A stretch of DNA of 64,000 nucleotides from Peptococcaceae bacterium BICA1-7. GTDB taxonomy: Bacteria; Bacillota; Desulfotomaculia; Desulfotomaculales; Desulfocucumaceae. Both the position numbers and the translations under genes were made by a program. Location: the NCBI GenBank assembly GCA_000802095.1, contig JUEB01000029.1, forward strand, positions 1 through 64,000, in the 5' to 3' direction. Shown one piece after another: positions 6,990 through 44,682 of this stretch (positions are counted from its first letter, which is position 1; the number at the start of each line of letters is the position of its first letter). Under the pieces are notes generated by a model. The model saw nothing but the letters and a program-made list of their open reading frames with translations, was not told where the DNA came from and made no database searches.

Positions 6990-8414
6990 ATGAAAAAAAG
7001 AATCGCCGGTCTTCTGGCCGTAATTCTCATATTCGTTCTGACCGCACAGCCGGTGCTGGCCGCTCCGGATGAAATAATAGGTATCAAGGTTGGAACACAA
7101 GATGCATATATTGATAATGAGTTTAAAGACATATATACTTTTAATCTGAAAGAAGATATTACAGTAATTACCAATAATACTGTGGATCATGTTATTATTG
7201 AGGGGCATACAGTATCAGACTATACTGTTTCATCGGCAACCTATACCTTTATTTATCAGGATTTGCCTTTTACAACAAAGGGTTTGAATGTAATTGATGT
7301 TGATGCAGAAGACAGCAGCAACAATTCTTTGGGTGATACATCAGTAGATGTGTATTATAGCGAAAAGGACTCCTACTACCGAAATGAAAATATCTTCAAG
7401 GGAGGAAGTCTGACCGCTTTTGATAGCGGAATAAAGCTAAGCCTTGGGAAAGATAATTATTACAAAGACTCGAACACCGAAATGGCAACCAGTGACACAT
7501 CTGTGTCAATTGCGGTGGAAGACAGATATAACAATGATTTTGGCTCAAGCGGCGATCCTCTTGAATACTATTCCTGCGTCAGTCCGGTTTTCAGGATTGA
7601 TAATGCGGACTCCACTATTAGCGACACCCTGTCCAAGCCTGTATCCTTAACTCTGAAGATTGACTCCGGTGTTCCTCCCTCACAGTACTCCAAGCTGTGC
7701 ATAGTAAGAAGCGCCAGCGGAGATTTCGATAACGATGCCGAGATAATGGTAGGTGTTGCCAAGAGCGGAACTATTGTTTCCGACCCTTTCTATGATTTGC
7801 CTGGATACAGCTATGCGGTAGGAATGTATAACAGATCCATCGACGCCGACTGGGCGGAATTTTCGGTTACCCCCCTGGTGGCCAAGGGTCTGATTGACGA
7901 GGGGCTGGTTGGAACCCTTACCAGTAACACCACCCGGGCAAATTTTGCCAAGATGGTGGTAAAAGGAATGGGAGTGCCCATTCTGGCCAGGACTCCTTCT
8001 AATCCTGTTTTCAGTGATATCGACGACAGTTCAACTGATGAAGAAGATAGGTGCATTGCCACAGCAGCGGCCTATGGAATAATGAGGGGAGACAATAATG
8101 GCCAATTTAACCCAGCGGACCCCCTTACCAGGCAAGAGGCTGCGGCTGTACTGGCCAACGTGGCCAAGCTGAAGCTGGTGGACGACCAGACCAAGGTGAA
8201 TATGGGCCTGGAGAAACTTTATTCAGATAGCGGCAGTATATCCAGCTGGGCCGGACCCGCAGTAATGGCGGTTACACAGGCGAAGCTTATGAATGGCAGT
8301 CCATCAACCGATACTGAAGAGAAAAGGGCAACATTTAATCCAACTAGTAATCTAAACTATTTGGAGTCTGCTACCATGGTTTACAACTTAATGAAAAAGA
8401 ATAAGAGAATGTAA
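6990..8414 (+). CDS. Exported protein with S-layer homology (SLH) domains
   Basis: A 474-residue secreted protein. The signal peptide is residues 1-24 (MKKRIAGLLAVILIFVLTAQ then PVLA). An N-terminal region of unknown fold (about 25-280) is followed by three SLH repeats in the last 200 residues (typical FSDI...AAAYGIMRGDNNGQFNP and LTRQEAAAVLANVA). SLH domains hold proteins to pyruvylated cell-wall polymers. The ATG at 6990 has AAGGAGG at the right distance; the upstream in-frame start does not. The N-terminal half is markedly AT-rich compared with the SLH part and the neighbours, suggesting a mosaic gene. Confidence 0.88.
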   Translation: MKKRIAGLLAVILIFVLTAQPVLAAPDEIIGIKVGTQDAYIDNEFKDIYTFNLKEDITVITNNTVDHVIIEGHTVSDYTVSSATYTFIYQDLPFTTKGLNVIDVDAEDSSNNSLGDTSVDVYYSEKDSYYRNENIFKGGSLTAFDSGIKLSLGKDNYYKDSNTEMATSDTSVSIAVEDRYNNDFGSSGDPLEYYSCVSPVFRIDNADSTISDTLSKPVSLTLKIDSGVPPSQYSKLCIVRSASGDFDNDAEIMVGVAKSGTIVSDPFYDLPGYSYAVGMYNRSIDADWAEFSVTPLVAKGLIDEGLVGTLTSNTTRANFAKMVVKGMGVPILARTPSNPVFSDIDDSSTDEEDRCIATAAAYGIMRGDNNGQFNPADPLTRQEAAAVLANVAKLKLVDDQTKVNMGLEKLYSDSGSISSWAGPAVMAVTQAKLMNGSPSTDTEEKRATFNPTSNLNYLESATMVYNLMKKNKRM

Positions 8415-8430
8415 CCCAATACAGCATGCC

Positions 8431-8464
8431 GGGCTGTCCGAAAGGGCAGCCCTTTTGGTTTTTT
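8431..8464 (+). terminator. Rho-independent terminator after the SLH gene
   Basis: Stem GGGCTG-t-CC / GG-g-CAGCCC with GAAA loop, then TTTTGGTTTTTT. Confidence 0.85.
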
Positions 8465-8472
8465 AACCCGGG

Positions 8473-8501
8473 TTTAAGGGACTTGCGCACTCTGGTATAA
8501 T
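8473..8501 (+). promoter_or_regulatory. Extended -10 promoter for uvrB
   Basis: TGGTATAAT (extended -10) at 8493-8501 with a weak -35 (TTTAAG) 17 bases upstream. No LexA box is visible here, unlike uvrA and dinB. Confidence 0.55.
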
Positions 8502-8531
8502 TAAAGTATTAAAGAAAGGGACGGAGTGCAT

Positions 8532-10556
8532 ATGCCGGAATTTAACCTAGTATCGGAATTTACCCCCCGGGGGGATCAGCCCGGGGCTATAGAAAAACTG
8601 GTGGAGGGAATAAACAGCGGGCACAGGCACCAGACCCTGCTGGGTGTTACCGGCAGCGGGAAAACCTACACCATGGCCCGGGTCATTCAGCAGATCCAGA
8701 GGCCCACCCTGGTGCTGGCCCCCAATAAGACCCTGGCGGCCCAGCTATGCTCGGAGTTCAAGGATTTCTTCCCTCACAACGCAGTGGAATACTTTGTCAG
8801 CTATTATGACTACTACCAGCCCGAGGCCTATATTCCCCGGACCGACACCTATATAGAAAAGGACTCTTCCATCAACGACGAAATAGACAAGCTGCGCCAC
8901 TCGGCCACCAGCGCTCTCTTCGAGCGGAGGGATGTTATAATAGTGGCCAGCGTTTCCTGCATATACGGCCTCGGTGACCCTGAAGAGTACAGGGACCTGG
9001 TGCTTTCCCTGCGGGAGGGCAGTGTGTATGACCGGGACTCTGTGCTGAGAAAGCTGGTGGATATACAGTTTGAAAGAAACGATATTAATTTCGACCGGGG
9101 CAAGTTCAGGGTGCTGGGGGATGTGGTGGAGATTTTCCCGGTGTCAACCGCTGAAAAAGCTATAAGGGTTGACTTTTTCGGTGATGAGGTGGAGCGCATA
9201 CTGGAATTTGATGTGGTTACCGGGGAAATACTGGGCCGGAGGAACCATGTTTTCATATTTCCGGCCAGCCACTACGCCATCTCCCGGGAGAAGATGGACA
9301 GAGCGGTGATCACCATTAAGGGTGAGCTTGAGGAAAGGCTCTCCTTCCTGAGGTCCCGGGACCTGCTGCTGGAGGCCCAGCGCCTGGAGCAGAGAACTAA
9401 CTATGACCTTGAGATGATGATGGAGATGGGCTACTGCAACGGCATTGAGAACTACTCCAGGCATCTTATCGGCAGGAGTCCCGGTGAGCCTCCCTATACC
9501 CTGCTGGACTTTTTCCCGGAGGATTTTATCATGTTCATAGATGAGTCTCACGTGGCCGTTCCTCAACTGGGGGGAATGTACGAGGGAGACAGGTCTCGCA
9601 AGCAGTCACTGATTGAGCACGGCTTCCGGCTTCCCTCGGCACTGGACAACCGGCCCTTAAAATTCAGCGAGTTTGAGGGGAAGATAAAGCAGATTATTTA
9701 CGTGTCGGCCACCCCGGCCGGCTATGAAAGGGAAAAGAGCACCCGGGTGGTGGAGCAAATTATACGCCCCACCGGGCTGGTGGACCCGGAGATTTCGGTG
9801 CGCCCCACCAGGGGGCAGATCGATGACCTGCTGGGTGAAATAAGGATGAGGGTGGAGAGGGAAGAAAGGGTTTTGATAACCACCCTGACCAAGAAAATGG
9901 CCGAAGACCTGACCGGTTATTTTAAGGAGATGGGTGTAAAAATCCGCTACCTGCACTCCGACATAAATACCATGGAGAGGATGGAAATACTGAGGGACCT
10001 GCGGCTGGGAGTTTTTGACGTGCTGGTGGGCATAAATCTCCTGAGGGAGGGTCTGGACCTGCCCGAGGTAAGCCTGGTGGCCATATTGGACGCCGACAAG
10101 GAGGGCTTCCTCAGGTCCGAGAGGTCTCTCATACAGACTATAGGCAGGGCGGCCAGGAATGCGGGCGGCAAGGTTATTATGTACGCCGACAGGATGACCG
10201 GCTCCATGAACAGCGCCATTGGCGAGACCGAGAGGAGAAGGAACAGACAGCTGGACTATAACAGGCAAAACGGCATAACACCGCGTACGGTGCGCAAGGC
10301 TGTCAGGGATGTGCTGGAGGCCACCCGGGTTGCTGAGGACAGGGCCCCTTACGGTGTGCCGGATAAGAAGGGCAGGCTTTCCAAGAAAGAAATGAAAAAA
10401 ATGATCGCCAGGCTGGAAAAGGAAATGAAAGAGGCTGCCAGGATGCTGGAATTTGAAAAGGCAGCCCAGCTGAGGGATGTTCTGATTGAAATGAGACTGT
10501 CCCTGCGGGGAAGGGAAGCTGGGATTTATGCTATTGATGGGGAAAGTGCCGGATAA
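8532..10556 (+). CDS. uvrB: Excinuclease ABC subunit B
   Basis: The damage-verifying helicase-like subunit of nucleotide excision repair; it is loaded by UvrA and then recruits UvrC. The 674-residue protein has Walker A GVTGSGKT near residue 40, the beta-hairpin region [16 protein letters not shown]-type box FIDESH, motif [11 protein letters not shown] and the C-terminal UVR motif ([19 protein letters not shown]) that pairs with UvrC. The ATG at 8532 is chosen over GTG at 8526 because GGACGGAG spaces correctly to it. The gene has its own promoter and terminator and is separated from uvrA by a toxin-antitoxin pair. Confidence 0.98.
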
Positions 10557-14849: not shown

Positions 14850-15117
14850 TTAGGAGTCGGGAGACTGCTGAAGGGTATGAGCTTTCAGGTCGGGAGACTA
14901 CTCATAGGAATGGTCCCGGGGTCGGGAGACTGCTCAGGGGTATGAGTTTCAGGTCGGGAGACAGGAGTTTTGCGACCGTGCTTCAGGGTTGGTGACAGAT
15001 AAGGAATGCCGGGTTCTTCTGTCTCCTGTCTCCCGACAGGAAGAAGTGCCTGTAAGCCGTCTCCTGACAGGAAGGAATGCCTGTAAGCAGTCTCCCGTCT
15101 CCCGACCCAAAAAACCA
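14850..15117. repeat. Array of CTGTCTCC-core intergenic repeats
   Basis: At least seven copies of GTCGGGAGAC or its complement fill the whole uvrA-uvrC gap. The first four read GTCGGGAGAC...; the last four read in the opposite sense (TCTGTCTCCTGTCTCCCGAC, CGTCTCCTGAC, AGTCTCCCGTCTCCCGACC), so the array can fold into a large hairpin. Interspersed motifs are GGAATGCC, GGTATGAG and GCCTGTAAGC. No gene is visible in the gap. Confidence 0.75.
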
Positions 15118-38569: not shown

Positions 38570-38785
38570 CTATAAGAGCTGATAGATTATCGCTCCCAGG
38601 GAGGCGGCGAATAATAGAGCTGCTGCCCAAAAGGCTCTGCTCAGCAGGACAATGGACCGCTCGGCCGCCGCCAGGCGCTCCTCCACATCTCCCAGGCGCT
38701 GTCCGGCCGGATCAACCATGCTTTTTTTAATGGTGGTGGCCAGGGAAACTATTTCACTGTCCATGTTTTTTGCCTGGGCCATCAT
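38570..38785 (-). CDS. Small tail-anchored protein of the dynamin-like cluster
   Basis: A 71-residue protein: a polar, helical N-terminal part with heptad-like hydrophobics (LGDVEERLAAAERSIVLLS) and one C-terminal membrane helix (FWAAALLFAASLGAIIYQLL). The start overlaps the end of the 91-residue gene by four bases (ATGA). No family recognised. The topology suggests a membrane anchor for a cytoplasmic partner such as the 91-residue coiled-coil protein or the dynamin-like GTPase (inference). Confidence 0.75.
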   Translation of the reverse strand: MMAQAKNMDSEIVSLATTIKKSMVDPAGQRLGDVEERLAAAERSIVLLSRAFWAAALLFAASLGAIIYQLL

Positions 38786-39057
38786 AACTTTCCACCCATC
38801 CCGGCCTGGTTTATGGCCTCTCTGATAGCGTTCAGTAGGATAACAGGGGTTGCCCTGACAGCCTCTTCCAGTCTCTCTAATCTTTCCCTGATAGCCTCCA
38901 GCTCCCGCTGGTTCTTCCCGTGGAGCTCCTCCACCAGATCTCCCAGCTTCCTGTTTTCACTGATTACCGGCTCTACCATTTTAGCCCGGGCGCCCCTGAC
39001 AATATCATTCATGAGAATTTGTAAATCCTGGTCGTTTACAGGTATTGGCCTGGTCAT
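38782..39057 (-). CDS. Small coiled-coil protein of the dynamin-like cluster
   Basis: A 91-residue protein with a long predicted coiled coil (about 35-75: NRKLGDLVEELHGKNQRELE, AIRERLERLEEAVRA) and no membrane segment. It has a strong GGGAGGGA ribosome site and is followed, with ATGA overlap, by the tail-anchored 71-residue gene. A repeat element separates it from the 65-residue gene upstream. Family unknown. Confidence 0.75.
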   Translation of the reverse strand: MTRPIPVNDQDLQILMNDIVRGARAKMVEPVISENRKLGDLVEELHGKNQRELEAIRERLERLEEAVRATPVILLNAIREAINQAGMGGKL

Positions 39058-39110
39058 TATTAATCCCTCCCATTCTTACTAATGGCCCCAGAGGGCCGGA
39101 ATTGCAAATA

Positions 39111-39164
39111 CTACCGTCTCCTGTCTCCCGTCTCCCGACAGAATAAGGATTTCAGCATAAGCAT
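39111..39164 (+). repeat. Modular intergenic repeat, CTGTCTCC core with full end block
   Basis: CCGTCTCCTGTCTCCCGTCT, CCCGAC, AGAATAAGGATTTCAGCATA, AGCAT. It lies inside the minus-strand cluster, between two small genes. Confidence 0.75.
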
Positions 39165-39165
39165 T

Positions 39166-39363
39166 TTAGTCCAGCTGGTCCAGGGACTTTTTGATCATCA
39201 GCAGCAGGTAGGCTGTCTGATTCCGGCTGCTTTGGGTGGTTATGGCGTCAACCGACCGGGTGAACTCCTCCACCATCTGTATTTTGATCTCTCCCCCGGT
39301 GCGGGTGCTTACTTCCCTTATTATCCTGCGGAGCCTCTCATCCAGCTGCCTGGCGTTTTCCAT
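39166..39363 (-). CDS. Small protein coupled to the dynamin-like GTPase
   Basis: A 65-residue charged helical protein (MENARQLDERLRRIIREVST ... YLLLMIKKSLDQLD). Its ATG begins three bases after the GTPase stop, and its ribosome site GGGGTGA lies inside the GTPase's last codons, so translation is coupled. No known family. The stop (TAG) abuts the AAGCAT end block of a repeat. Confidence 0.72.
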   Translation of the reverse strand: MENARQLDERLRRIIREVSTRTGGEIKIQMVEEFTRSVDAITTQSSRNQTAYLLLMIKKSLDQLD

Positions 39364-39366
39364 TTT

Positions 39367-41622
39367 CTAAATCACCCCGCTTCCCAAAAGCTTTCTGGTT
39401 AACCTCTCCAGCTCCCCCAGGTAGTAGAGGGCCTCCTGCCTGGTCTTATGCGGAATACCGGACCTTCCTTCGGTTCCGCTGGCTATTCCCGAAAGCCAGC
39501 CCCTTAACTCTGCTGCGGTCCGGGCTGTTTTTCCGGCTTCAGTATCCTCAGCTTTTTTTCTGAGCTGCCTCAACAGCCTTTCAAACCCGTCATCGCCCCG
39601 CTGCAGGGCATTAAGGGCTGATATTGCGTAAACCCGGGGGTAGGGGATCAGTCCGTTGGTTCCCTGTCCAAGCTTTTGCCGGATATGAATTAAAACCTTT
39701 TCTTTTTCCAGGTCTGAAAGTGTATCAGCAAAGTTAATCACATACAGGGCCGGTATGTCCAGGCCCATCTCCCTGATCAGGCTGATTTGCTCAGGTATGC
39801 TCCCGTTTAGCACATGTTTGGCATGCAGAAAAAAAAGAACCAGGCTGCCCGAGGCCAGTACCGAGGCCGCCCTTTCATAGTGCCTTTTATGAAGTGAGTC
39901 CAGCCCCGGGGTATCTGTAAACTCGGCAAAAGAAAGGTTTTCCGACGGGTGTCTGATGACCACCCGCCCCGCCAAAAGAGAGCGAGGAGGTGATATGGCC
40001 CGGTAGAAGTTAACTCTCTGAAGACTGTCATCCAGATGGTACAGGAGCGGGTCCCTTTTAGTCAGGTTAATTTTTACGCTGGCGATAGGCGGCGAGGTGA
40101 GGGTCCTGGCCGGAATTTTTTTAGAAAAAAAAGGTATGCGTCTGATTTTTCCAGGGGCTGTTATCTGTTCTGCCTTGCTGTACATTGCACACAGCTCATC
40201 CAGCGCCACGGCCAGCTGAGACGTTGTTACTCTCCGGCTGAGGCCGTTGGTACAGACTTCGGCCCAGGCGATTCGCTCCCTCAGGGAGTTATTCTCCAGT
40301 ATTCCCGTAAGGGACTTTACCTCCCGGTAGTCCAGTGAATACTTTCCATCCTGGCATATAGTGGGGAAAAATTCGGCATGGTAAAGATGTTCCACCTCTG
40401 CGGCCTTTTCGTGGCCGTGGCGCAGTAGCACCGGGCAGGAGGTGGTGGCCCTGTCCTCTGCGGGCAGCAGAGTTTCTCCCAGCAGAGCGTTTAAGAAGGT
40501 TGTCTTGCCGGTGGAAAAGGGCCCCACCACCATTACCCGGAATTTTTCGGACTGTATGGCCGCTGCTTTTTTCAATATTCCCCGCCTGTCATGTCTTGCC
40601 AGGGAGCCATTTAAGCTTATTTCCTCAAGCAGAGACCTGATCACTTCTCCCGGGCGGCGTCCGGCGCGGCCGTAATTCTTATGGGGAGGCACTATCACCG
40701 ACCCGGTTATCAGTTTGCTGCTGCTGGCCCCCAGCAGGTTTACCATGTTCCCGTAAATTAGCGGCAGCTCCCTCAAGGCCTGTCTGGCGGAATTGATTGC
40801 TCCGGCCTTTTCCACCACCTCCCACAGCCTGATCAGGAACCTTTCGTTTTCGGCCTGCAGGGAGGCCCTGTCAATTAGTCCCGGAATGGTTCTGTCAGCC
40901 CGGGAAAGCTTGCTCTCTATCTCCCGCACAAAGAAATCAAAAGCCCTCACCTTTAAAAAAAGAGAAATTAGGCCGGTACTTGAGCGGTCCGCCGTGTTTA
41001 GGGCAAATACATCGGATTTCCCTGGAAAGAGCGATCTTATGGCCTGCTTTGTCTCTGTCAGGGAGGTTCCGTCTATAAGCCCGAGGTTGGCGTTAATCCA
41101 GAAGGAAATCCAGCCCTTTATTCCGGCAGTCCCTATTTCGGACAGAAATCTGTGGGTTGCCTGGTCTATACCTCGCTGGTGAAAAAGGAATATAATCCCA
41201 TCTGCCCTGGACATGTACTCCCGGACCATTCTGTCTGTTTCTACGCTGAGTCCTACCCCCGGTGTATCCACCAGATTGCACCAGCCCAGTAAGCCGGAGG
41301 GTAAAAATATCTCCACTTTATCAGGCGCTGTCGATATTCTTTTGTTTTTTAGCACACTTCTGAGGTCCTTTTCTTCCAGCCGGGCAGATCTGCCCTTTGC
41401 TTGTTTAACCGCCGAGAACTTATTGGAAAAGCCGAGGTGGACGGGAAATAAGGAAGATGGGGCCGCGTCGTCGGGGCACACCCGCTTCTCCAGCAGGCTG
41501 TTGACCAGGGTGGATTTCCCTGCGTTAACAGGGCCGGCCACCAGGAAGAGGGGCTTTTCCCCTTCCCGGTGCAGCTCACATATTTCGGTAACCCGCCTTA
41601 CATATTCCATAACGGTATTCAT
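39367..41622 (-). CDS. Dynamin-like protein with two tandem GTPase domains
   Basis: A 751-residue protein with two dynamin-type GTPase domains in one chain. First: G1 GPVNAGKST (about 30-38) and G3 DTPGVGL (about 119). Second: G1 GPFSTGKTT (about 367-375), G3 TDTPGLDS (about 570) and G4 NFAD (about 631). Bacterial dynamins such as DynA of B. subtilis also fuse two units but are near 1200 residues; here little room is left for long stalk helices, and no membrane helix is seen. The ATG at 41622 fits GGCAGGG; a GTG nine bases upstream is possible. Three small proteins follow, of which one is tail-anchored and one a coiled coil, and may supply the missing parts. Roles could be membrane repair, phage defence or division. 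Confidence 0.85.
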   Translation of the reverse strand: MNTVMEYVRRVTEICELHREGEKPLFLVAGPVNAGKSTLVNSLLEKRVCPDDAAPSSLFPVHLGFSNKFSAVKQAKGRSARLEEKDLRSVLKNKRISTAPDKVEIFLPSGLLGWCNLVDTPGVGLSVETDRMVREYMSRADGIIFLFHQRGIDQATHRFLSEIGTAGIKGWISFWINANLGLIDGTSLTETKQAIRSLFPGKSDVFALNTADRSSTGLISLFLKVRAFDFFVREIESKLSRADRTIPGLIDRASLQAENERFLIRLWEVVEKAGAINSARQALRELPLIYGNMVNLLGASSSKLITGSVIVPPHKNYGRAGRRPGEVIRSLLEEISLNGSLARHDRRGILKKAAAIQSEKFRVMVVGPFSTGKTTFLNALLGETLLPAEDRATTSCPVLLRHGHEKAAEVEHLYHAEFFPTICQDGKYSLDYREVKSLTGILENNSLRERIAWAEVCTNGLSRRVTTSQLAVALDELCAMYSKAEQITAPGKIRRIPFFSKKIPARTLTSPPIASVKINLTKRDPLLYHLDDSLQRVNFYRAISPPRSLLAGRVVIRHPSENLSFAEFTDTPGLDSLHKRHYERAASVLASGSLVLFFLHAKHVLNGSIPEQISLIREMGLDIPALYVINFADTLSDLEKEKVLIHIRQKLGQGTNGLIPYPRVYAISALNALQRGDDGFERLLRQLRKKAEDTEAGKTARTAAELRGWLSGIASGTEGRSGIPHKTRQEALYYLGELERLTRKLLGSGVI

Positions 41623-41724
41623 GGGCAGCACCCTGCCTTTTTATTTACTCAATTGGAATATATTATCAGTAGGCCTTTTTAATGCATAAAAAACTCCGCC
41701 CAGTGGACGGAGCTTGGTTTGCTT

Positions 41725-41812: not shown

Positions 41813-41979
41813 TTGGCCACAGAGGACACAGAGATCACAGAGAATTTGTTTTCAGGCATTACTCTCAGGTCTGAAACCTATGTATAAAATTCTAATCTGT
41901 TTTAATATTAACCTCTTAAAGCATTAATGCAGGGCTTAAAAACCTCTGTGTCCTCTGTGGCTTAAAAAGGACCCCAATT
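41813..41979. repeat. MITE-like element with CACAGAG inverted ends (copy 2)
   Basis: Left end TTGGCCACAGAGGACACAGA (then GATCACAGAGAAT), inner GGCATTACTCTCAGGTCTGA, right end AAAACCTCTGTGTCCTCTGT (then GGCTTAAAAAGGACCCCAAT). It is the same design as 11667-11855 with a diverged AT-rich middle. With the preceding fragment it fills the 41623-41991 gap; no gene is visible there. Confidence 0.8.
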
Positions 41980-43493: not shown

Positions 43494-44558
43494 CTAGCCG
43501 ATAACTCCCCCCAGGGCCAGGAGAACTTCCAGGAGTATAAGTAAAACTATGGTTACCTCAAGTATATTGGACTGCTGTGTGGCCACCTCATTGCTGAGCA
43601 GGGTGTAATTATTCTGTATGGTGTTTATTTTCCTCTCTATGCTCTCTTCCCATGCGTGGGTGCGGAGTATTTTAAGAGCAGTTCCGTATACCCTGGCGTA
43701 AAAAACATCCTCGGTGAGCTTTAGGGAATTGTGGATCCTCTCGGTGATTTCGCTTATGTCTATAACCAGCTCCATCAGGCTGTTCATTATCCTGCGGTAG
43801 TGCCCCCCTCTGCGGTAACGCCCTATGGTTCCGGCCTCTTCCAGGGAGTCGTACATCTTGATCATTTCCTCCGACAGCAGGTTGTCGTAATAGCGCAGCT
43901 CCAGGAGTTGAGAGTTGGCGAACTCCAGCAGGTCAGGTATGTCGGCGCTGCCCGTGGGGTCGTAAACAAGAGCCGAGTCCCACGTGATCACTGCCAGGTC
44001 ATCCTTTCCGTAGGAAAAAGAATTACAGTTAATTTCCCTTCTTATCTGATCGCTCAAAGGCTCGGTTTCGGCCAGCAAGAGGGGGGCCGGGTCCCAGTCT
44101 AAATTCCAGTTGTGGAAATAGTATATGATGTAGTCCTCTACAAAGCCTGTATTTTCCGGTTTTATCATGGCATCCAGGAGGGTGTTGCTTACCTCGGTGA
44201 GCTTTTGGCTGAAGGCAGCCTCCAGGTCCTGATTGTTGTAAAGGTAAACGGCCAGACTGTGAAGGCTCTGATAGTCCAGGCCGGAGGGGATGGAAATTCT
44301 CATGGTTACGCTGATAACACCGAGGTCATATATCCTGGCGTAATAAAATACCTTGCAGCGGAGGCCCGGGAAGTCATAAGTATCTTCACCCAGCTCCATA
44401 GTAACCGGGGGGTTGGCTATATGTATAGATTTGGGCCTTATTCGGGAAAGCTTCATCCTGGAGGTTGGCTTTATCTGGGATAAGACTTTTTCCACCCTGT
44501 CCAGCTTTATTTCCTCGGCCACATCAAAAATTCTTAACAGATAATAATAATTGTCCAT
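43494..44558 (-). CDS. RMD1/DUF155-like tail-anchored membrane protein
   Basis: A ~354-residue protein with a single C-terminal membrane helix (ILEVTIVLLILLEVLLALGG). The region DDLAVITWDSALVYDPTGSA and FANSQLLELRYYDNLLSEEM, followed by a helical, coiled-coil-like part and NTIQNNYTLLSNEVATQQSN, resembles the RMD1/DUF155 family of tail-anchored proteins (mitochondrial RMND1 in eukaryotes). Function in bacteria is unknown. The ATG at 44558 is chosen as the start of the conserved part (MDNYYYLLRIFDVAEE). Family assignment is moderate. Confidence 0.6.
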   Translation of the reverse strand: MDNYYYLLRIFDVAEEIKLDRVEKVLSQIKPTSRMKLSRIRPKSIHIANPPVTMELGEDTYDFPGLRCKVFYYARIYDLGVISVTMRISIPSGLDYQSLHSLAVYLYNNQDLEAAFSQKLTEVSNTLLDAMIKPENTGFVEDYIIYYFHNWNLDWDPAPLLLAETEPLSDQIRREINCNSFSYGKDDLAVITWDSALVYDPTGSADIPDLLEFANSQLLELRYYDNLLSEEMIKMYDSLEEAGTIGRYRRGGHYRRIMNSLMELVIDISEITERIHNSLKLTEDVFYARVYGTALKILRTHAWEESIERKINTIQNNYTLLSNEVATQQSNILEVTIVLLILLEVLLALGGVIG

Positions 44559-44682
44559 TAATAAAACCCGCTTCTTCAGTTTATTTGTGTATTTTAACAA
44601 AAAATATGTCAATGGGCAAATAATGAGCAGTAGTATAACCGGACATTCCGATAAGCATCATAAAAGCAGGAGGTGAGAAAAA

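Follow-up and report, generated by a model that had tools for sequence, protein, structure and literature searches.

An undescribed four-gene unit encoding a tandem dynamin-type GTPase and three small proteins in sulfate-reducing and related bacteria

The minus strand of the window, meaning the whole 64,000-nucleotide stretch of DNA that was analyzed, carries a gene for a GTPase with two dynamin-type domains followed by three very small genes. This arrangement raises the question of whether the four genes belong together and, if so, what kind of GTPase system they encode. A first-pass annotation had described three small same-strand genes of 65, 91 and 71 residues, and these features that it listed are present: a three-base gap between the GTPase stop codon and the 65-aa gene, an ATGA overlap between the 91-aa and 71-aa genes and a C-terminal membrane helix in the last product. 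Its gene span of 38570-41622 is correct at the small-gene end; the GTPase, however, starts with a GTG at 41631, the ATG at 41622 being codon 4. The upstream GTG was taken as the start because relatives of the GTPase begin with MLPL or MLNL in a homologue comparison. The features of the locus are:

39367..41631, minus strand: GTPase of 754 aa with two dynamin-type domains in tandem, starting with GTG; residues of about 25-215 form domain 1, about 216-358 a helical linker and about 360-690 domain 2, before a short helical C-terminus; helix positions are taken from low-confidence structure models only
39166..39363, minus strand: 65-aa small protein with the conserved N-terminus MENARxLDERLRxIIREVSxxTG
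39058..39165, no strand: spacer between the 65-aa and 91-aa genes, longer than usual, with a GACAGGAG-type repeat at 39111-39132
38782..39057, minus strand: 91-aa protein with a heptad-like stretch, possibly a coiled coil
38570..38785, minus strand: 71-aa putative tail-anchored protein with an SLA motif followed by a single C-terminal membrane helix

The neighborhood check proposed in the first-pass annotation asked whether homologues of the GTPase lack the small genes, and the opposite was found across 113 genomes of the class (57/57 vs 0/56). A search with the GTPase identified it in 57 of these genomes, and independent profile searches recovered one copy each of the 65-aa and 91-aa genes in exactly those 57 genomes and in none of the 56 others. 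A small membrane-helix gene follows the 91-aa gene in all 56 loci examined, including the window, and also in genome G020, where the trio of small genes lies on a different contig from the GTPase, giving 57/57. The order GTPase, 65-aa gene, 91-aa gene and tail-anchored gene holds across the loci of the unit, and at the 56 loci not split between contigs every gene lies on the same strand. The median gap between the GTPase and the 65-aa gene is 3 bp, with the two genes overlapping in 23 of 56 loci. At loci L072 and L061 a break in the GTPase reading frame makes the tabulated gap too large; the downstream GTPase pieces end within a few bases of the 65-aa gene or overlap it. The broken frames, which may be genuine or due to sequencing errors, span 7128-9430 on the plus strand of L072 and 7171-9953 on the minus strand of L061; all three small genes are present at both sites. 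Between the 65-aa and 91-aa genes the median gap over all 56 loci is 17 bp, compared with 108 bp in the window. The repeat located in this spacer is a dispersed short repeat with 17 sites between positions 14953 and 41762 of the window (17 matches to the 15-mer vs 0.09 expected). All four genes are conserved across the class and their dN/dS values relative to the nearest relative are low (GTPase 0.22, 65-aa 0.21, 91-aa 0.09 and 71-aa 0.31), so they are not chance reading frames; all four are under purifying selection. Taken as a whole, the arrangement supports the four genes as one unit.

In Pfam, Dynamin_N far outranks the other matches of the GTPase and covers two stretches of the chain (E 3.4e-31). 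P-loops are located at residues 33-41 (GPVNAGKST) and 370-378 (GPFSTGKTT), DTPG motifs at residues 122-125 and 573-576, and profile comparison identifies the two domains as homologous to each other (probability 99.1, E 5.6e-19). No membrane helix was detected by hydropathy, with a best 19-residue value of 1.46 in the chain itself and a maximum of 1.56 over its homologues; the chain may nevertheless contain an amphipathic or paddle-type membrane site. The first-pass description of a protein of about 750 residues with two dynamin-type domains and no membrane helix is thus borne out. Its further claim of complete G1 and G3 motifs in both domains also stands, with a correction to be made for the G4 of domain 1. 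Among 54 GTPase sequences, domain 2 contains all of G1 to G4, with G4 mostly reading NFAD. In domain 1, where the P-loop and DTPG are near-invariant, G1 to G3 are present and G4 is atypical: its place reads SFW(I/L)NxN, so that the usual N/TKxD is missing. Domain 1 also contains an invariant QRG, immediately preceded by H in 48 of the 54 sequences.

Comparison of the GTPase profile with the PDB returned the Campylobacter jejuni pair of dynamin-like proteins (DLPs; 5owv best), BDLP, mitofusin 2 and cyanobacterial Slr0869 as best matches, with the GTPase Der close behind and Era and septins lower. By sequence profile, the closest relations are thus bacterial dynamins and mitofusins. Structure prediction of the whole GTPase was poor (mean pLDDT 37.4) because the underlying alignment was limited to two sequences, and a structure search with this model listed mitofusin 2 and IniA first, closely followed by EHD2, EngB, LRRK2, EF-Tu and ribosome entries, a mixture that renders the search uninformative. 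With domain 1 modeled alone (mean pLDDT 46.9, again from a two-sequence alignment), BDLP, Fzo1 and IniA rank first and EngA, EF-Tu and EngB lower, which weakly supports an assignment to the dynamin kind. DLPs are defined by a four-helix neck and trunk (the stalk) and a lipid-binding tip (PMC6104087), in addition to a dynamin-type GTPase domain. The latter is found in our protein, albeit with the atypical G4 of domain 1, while neck, trunk and lipid-binding tip were not identified in it but may be present. Long helices follow domain 1 in the low-confidence model and no stalk family is among the Pfam matches listed for the GTPase. The unrecognized stalk and short helical parts, the weaker matches to Der, Era and septins and the unusual G4 would all suit a tandem GTPase acting as a switch of the Der or septin type, which recruits a complex to the membrane via the tail-anchored protein, with the 65-aa and 91-aa proteins as effectors and no remodeling of membranes. 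We consider such a switch unlikely, however, given that Dynamin_N clearly leads in Pfam and that bacterial dynamins head the PDB profile matches.

The three small proteins have no convincing family match in Pfam, NCBIfam, PADLOC or PHROG, and most of the few PDB entries hit by their profiles are helical, coiled-coil or designed proteins with no evident relation. The C-terminal hydrophobic segment of the 71-aa protein has a hydropathy of 1.95. Of its homologues, the 47 that passed a strict filter were scored, and in every one the positive residues preceding the helix outnumber those following it; the tail beyond the helix has a median length of 3 residues. This pattern fits a tail-anchored protein whose helical part, carrying the positive residues, would face the cytosol. 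The 91-aa and tail-anchored proteins have a VxP motif in common and were considered as paralogues, which a profile comparison probability of 2.5 does not bear out. GTPase homologues from families f4, f5 and f18 are 919-1030 residues long and carry a C-terminal extension of roughly 200 residues. The possibility that the small proteins represent a broken-off GTPase C-terminus was rejected because these longer homologues carry both the extension and the trio.

We hypothesize, with a probability of roughly 0.6, that the four gene products form one membrane-tethered dynamin-like GTPase machine. The GTPase chain would supply two GTP-binding domains, domain 2 with the usual motifs and domain 1 with an unusual guanine-recognition site and the invariant QRG, and these domains may pair, either within the chain or across chains, to produce GTP-dependent shape changes. 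The cytosolic helical part of the 71-aa protein would dock the GTPase at the cell membrane, while the 65-aa and 91-aa proteins could act as helical accessory subunits, either connecting anchor and GTPase or regulating how the GTPase assembles. The output of the machine may be membrane remodeling or repair, similar to what has been proposed for DynA. The more specific idea of a split dynamin, a four-protein machine for membrane remodeling in which the three small proteins hold and assemble a double GTPase that has neither an anchor nor a full stalk, is tentative and falls somewhat short of even odds. The first-pass annotation had the anchor and assembly helices supplied in trans: the existence of the unit, the tail anchor and the absence of a helix from the GTPase agree with this, but the trio is also kept by the homologues of 919-1030 residues, which weakens the notion that the small proteins stand in for parts that a compact GTPase is missing.

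Known dynamin systems resemble this unit in part. DynA of Bacillus subtilis consists of two fused DLPs, and bacterial DLPs mostly come as operon pairs (PMC6104087). Both DynA and the GTPase described here thus combine two dynamin-type units per chain; however, the NCBIfam DynA model NF052648 has 1187 positions compared with 754 aa, and the GTPase scores 55.4 bits against it, below the equivalog cut-off of 1600, and does not qualify as DynA. DynA itself had no match at E 1e-25 among the 113 class genomes. C. jejuni DLP1/DLP2, the best PDB match, also rely on two cooperating GTPase units, but each of these is a full-size DLP in its own right, complete with neck and trunk, and the portion of PMC6104087 drawn on describes no small-gene trio for them. 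LeoB/LeoC, part of the LeoABC system of enterotoxigenic Escherichia coli, represent one DLP split over two genes (PMC4159319) and thus provide a precedent for a divided dynamin. In our unit, by contrast, a single chain contains both GTPase domains, accompanied by very small additional genes of which one encodes a putative membrane anchor. Mitofusins and Fzo1 have GTPase domains that rank with the nearest in the sequence-profile comparison; mitofusins contain their transmembrane domain within the same chain (PMC6317495), whereas the anchor here would be a separate protein. The first-pass annotation had considered the layout undescribed, and our search of open-access papers likewise found no description of it. 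In the dynamins compared, motor, stalk and membrane contact reside in a single chain or a pair of full-size proteins, and a conserved unit separating the motor from the anchor would allow each function to be added back separately in vitro. Such a machine would also assign a role to three unannotated small protein families, and about half of the sampled genomes in a class devoid of detected DynA would gain a candidate membrane-remodeling GTPase.

In a 398-genome sample of the phylum, full-length GTPase matches do not extend beyond the class (sulfate reducers and related bacteria), and the 65-aa profile matches class members only, apart from one weak match within a 599-residue frame. A scan of genome contigs yielded one clear full-length relative, from the class member Desulfovirgula thermocuniculi, besides four weak generic matches. 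A tree of 54 GTPases splits none of the families tested, a result suggestive of descent within the class. Genomes that are 97-99% complete and do not encode the GTPase occur beside carriers, as in genus g29 with G062 and G064; the 65-aa and 91-aa genes are likewise absent from these non-carriers. By presence and absence, this pattern in near-complete genomes suggests that GTPase and small genes may have been lost jointly. Patchiness within genera would also suit a stress or anti-phage module, with the GTPase as sensor of membrane damage and the small membrane protein as the effector, and DynA has been proposed to take part in surveying the membrane when cells face stress or phage attack (work cited in PMC6104087). 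We regard this explanation as improbable: the GTPase tree keeps each family together as a single group, the matches in PADLOC cover short segments near the nucleotide-binding sites of various models, including LeoA-type ones, and the 65-aa profile picked up no relative in viral contigs, the observation on which a phage origin of the unit was also rejected. A link to sporulation was likewise discarded: SpoIVA is found in 104 of 113 genomes, so the presence of the unit does not follow it.

The genes surrounding the unit differ between families and are mostly family-specific. P0007, a membrane protein encoded upstream of the unit in the window's own family, is a frequent neighbor and was considered as a fifth member. 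Some genomes encode it but lack the unit, others have the unit but not P0007, and because its presence is independent of the unit we treat it as a neighbor. A DUF155 assignment for P0007 was dropped, there being no such match in the genome. A family of about 245 aa, represented at L040:6342-7076 (minus strand), has no Pfam or NCBIfam match and is found near the unit in 19 loci of families f4, f9, f15 and f18. Within the window, the product of positions 43494-44612 (minus strand) is 372 aa long, has a membrane helix at its C-terminus and lacks any worthwhile Pfam, NCBIfam or PDB match; relatives, two of them partial, are found in 51 of 113 class genomes. Upstream of the GTPase, CCACAGAGGACACAGAG forms an inverted pair at 41817-41833 (plus strand) and 41944-41960 (minus strand), and five matches to it were identified within the window vs 0.02 expected.
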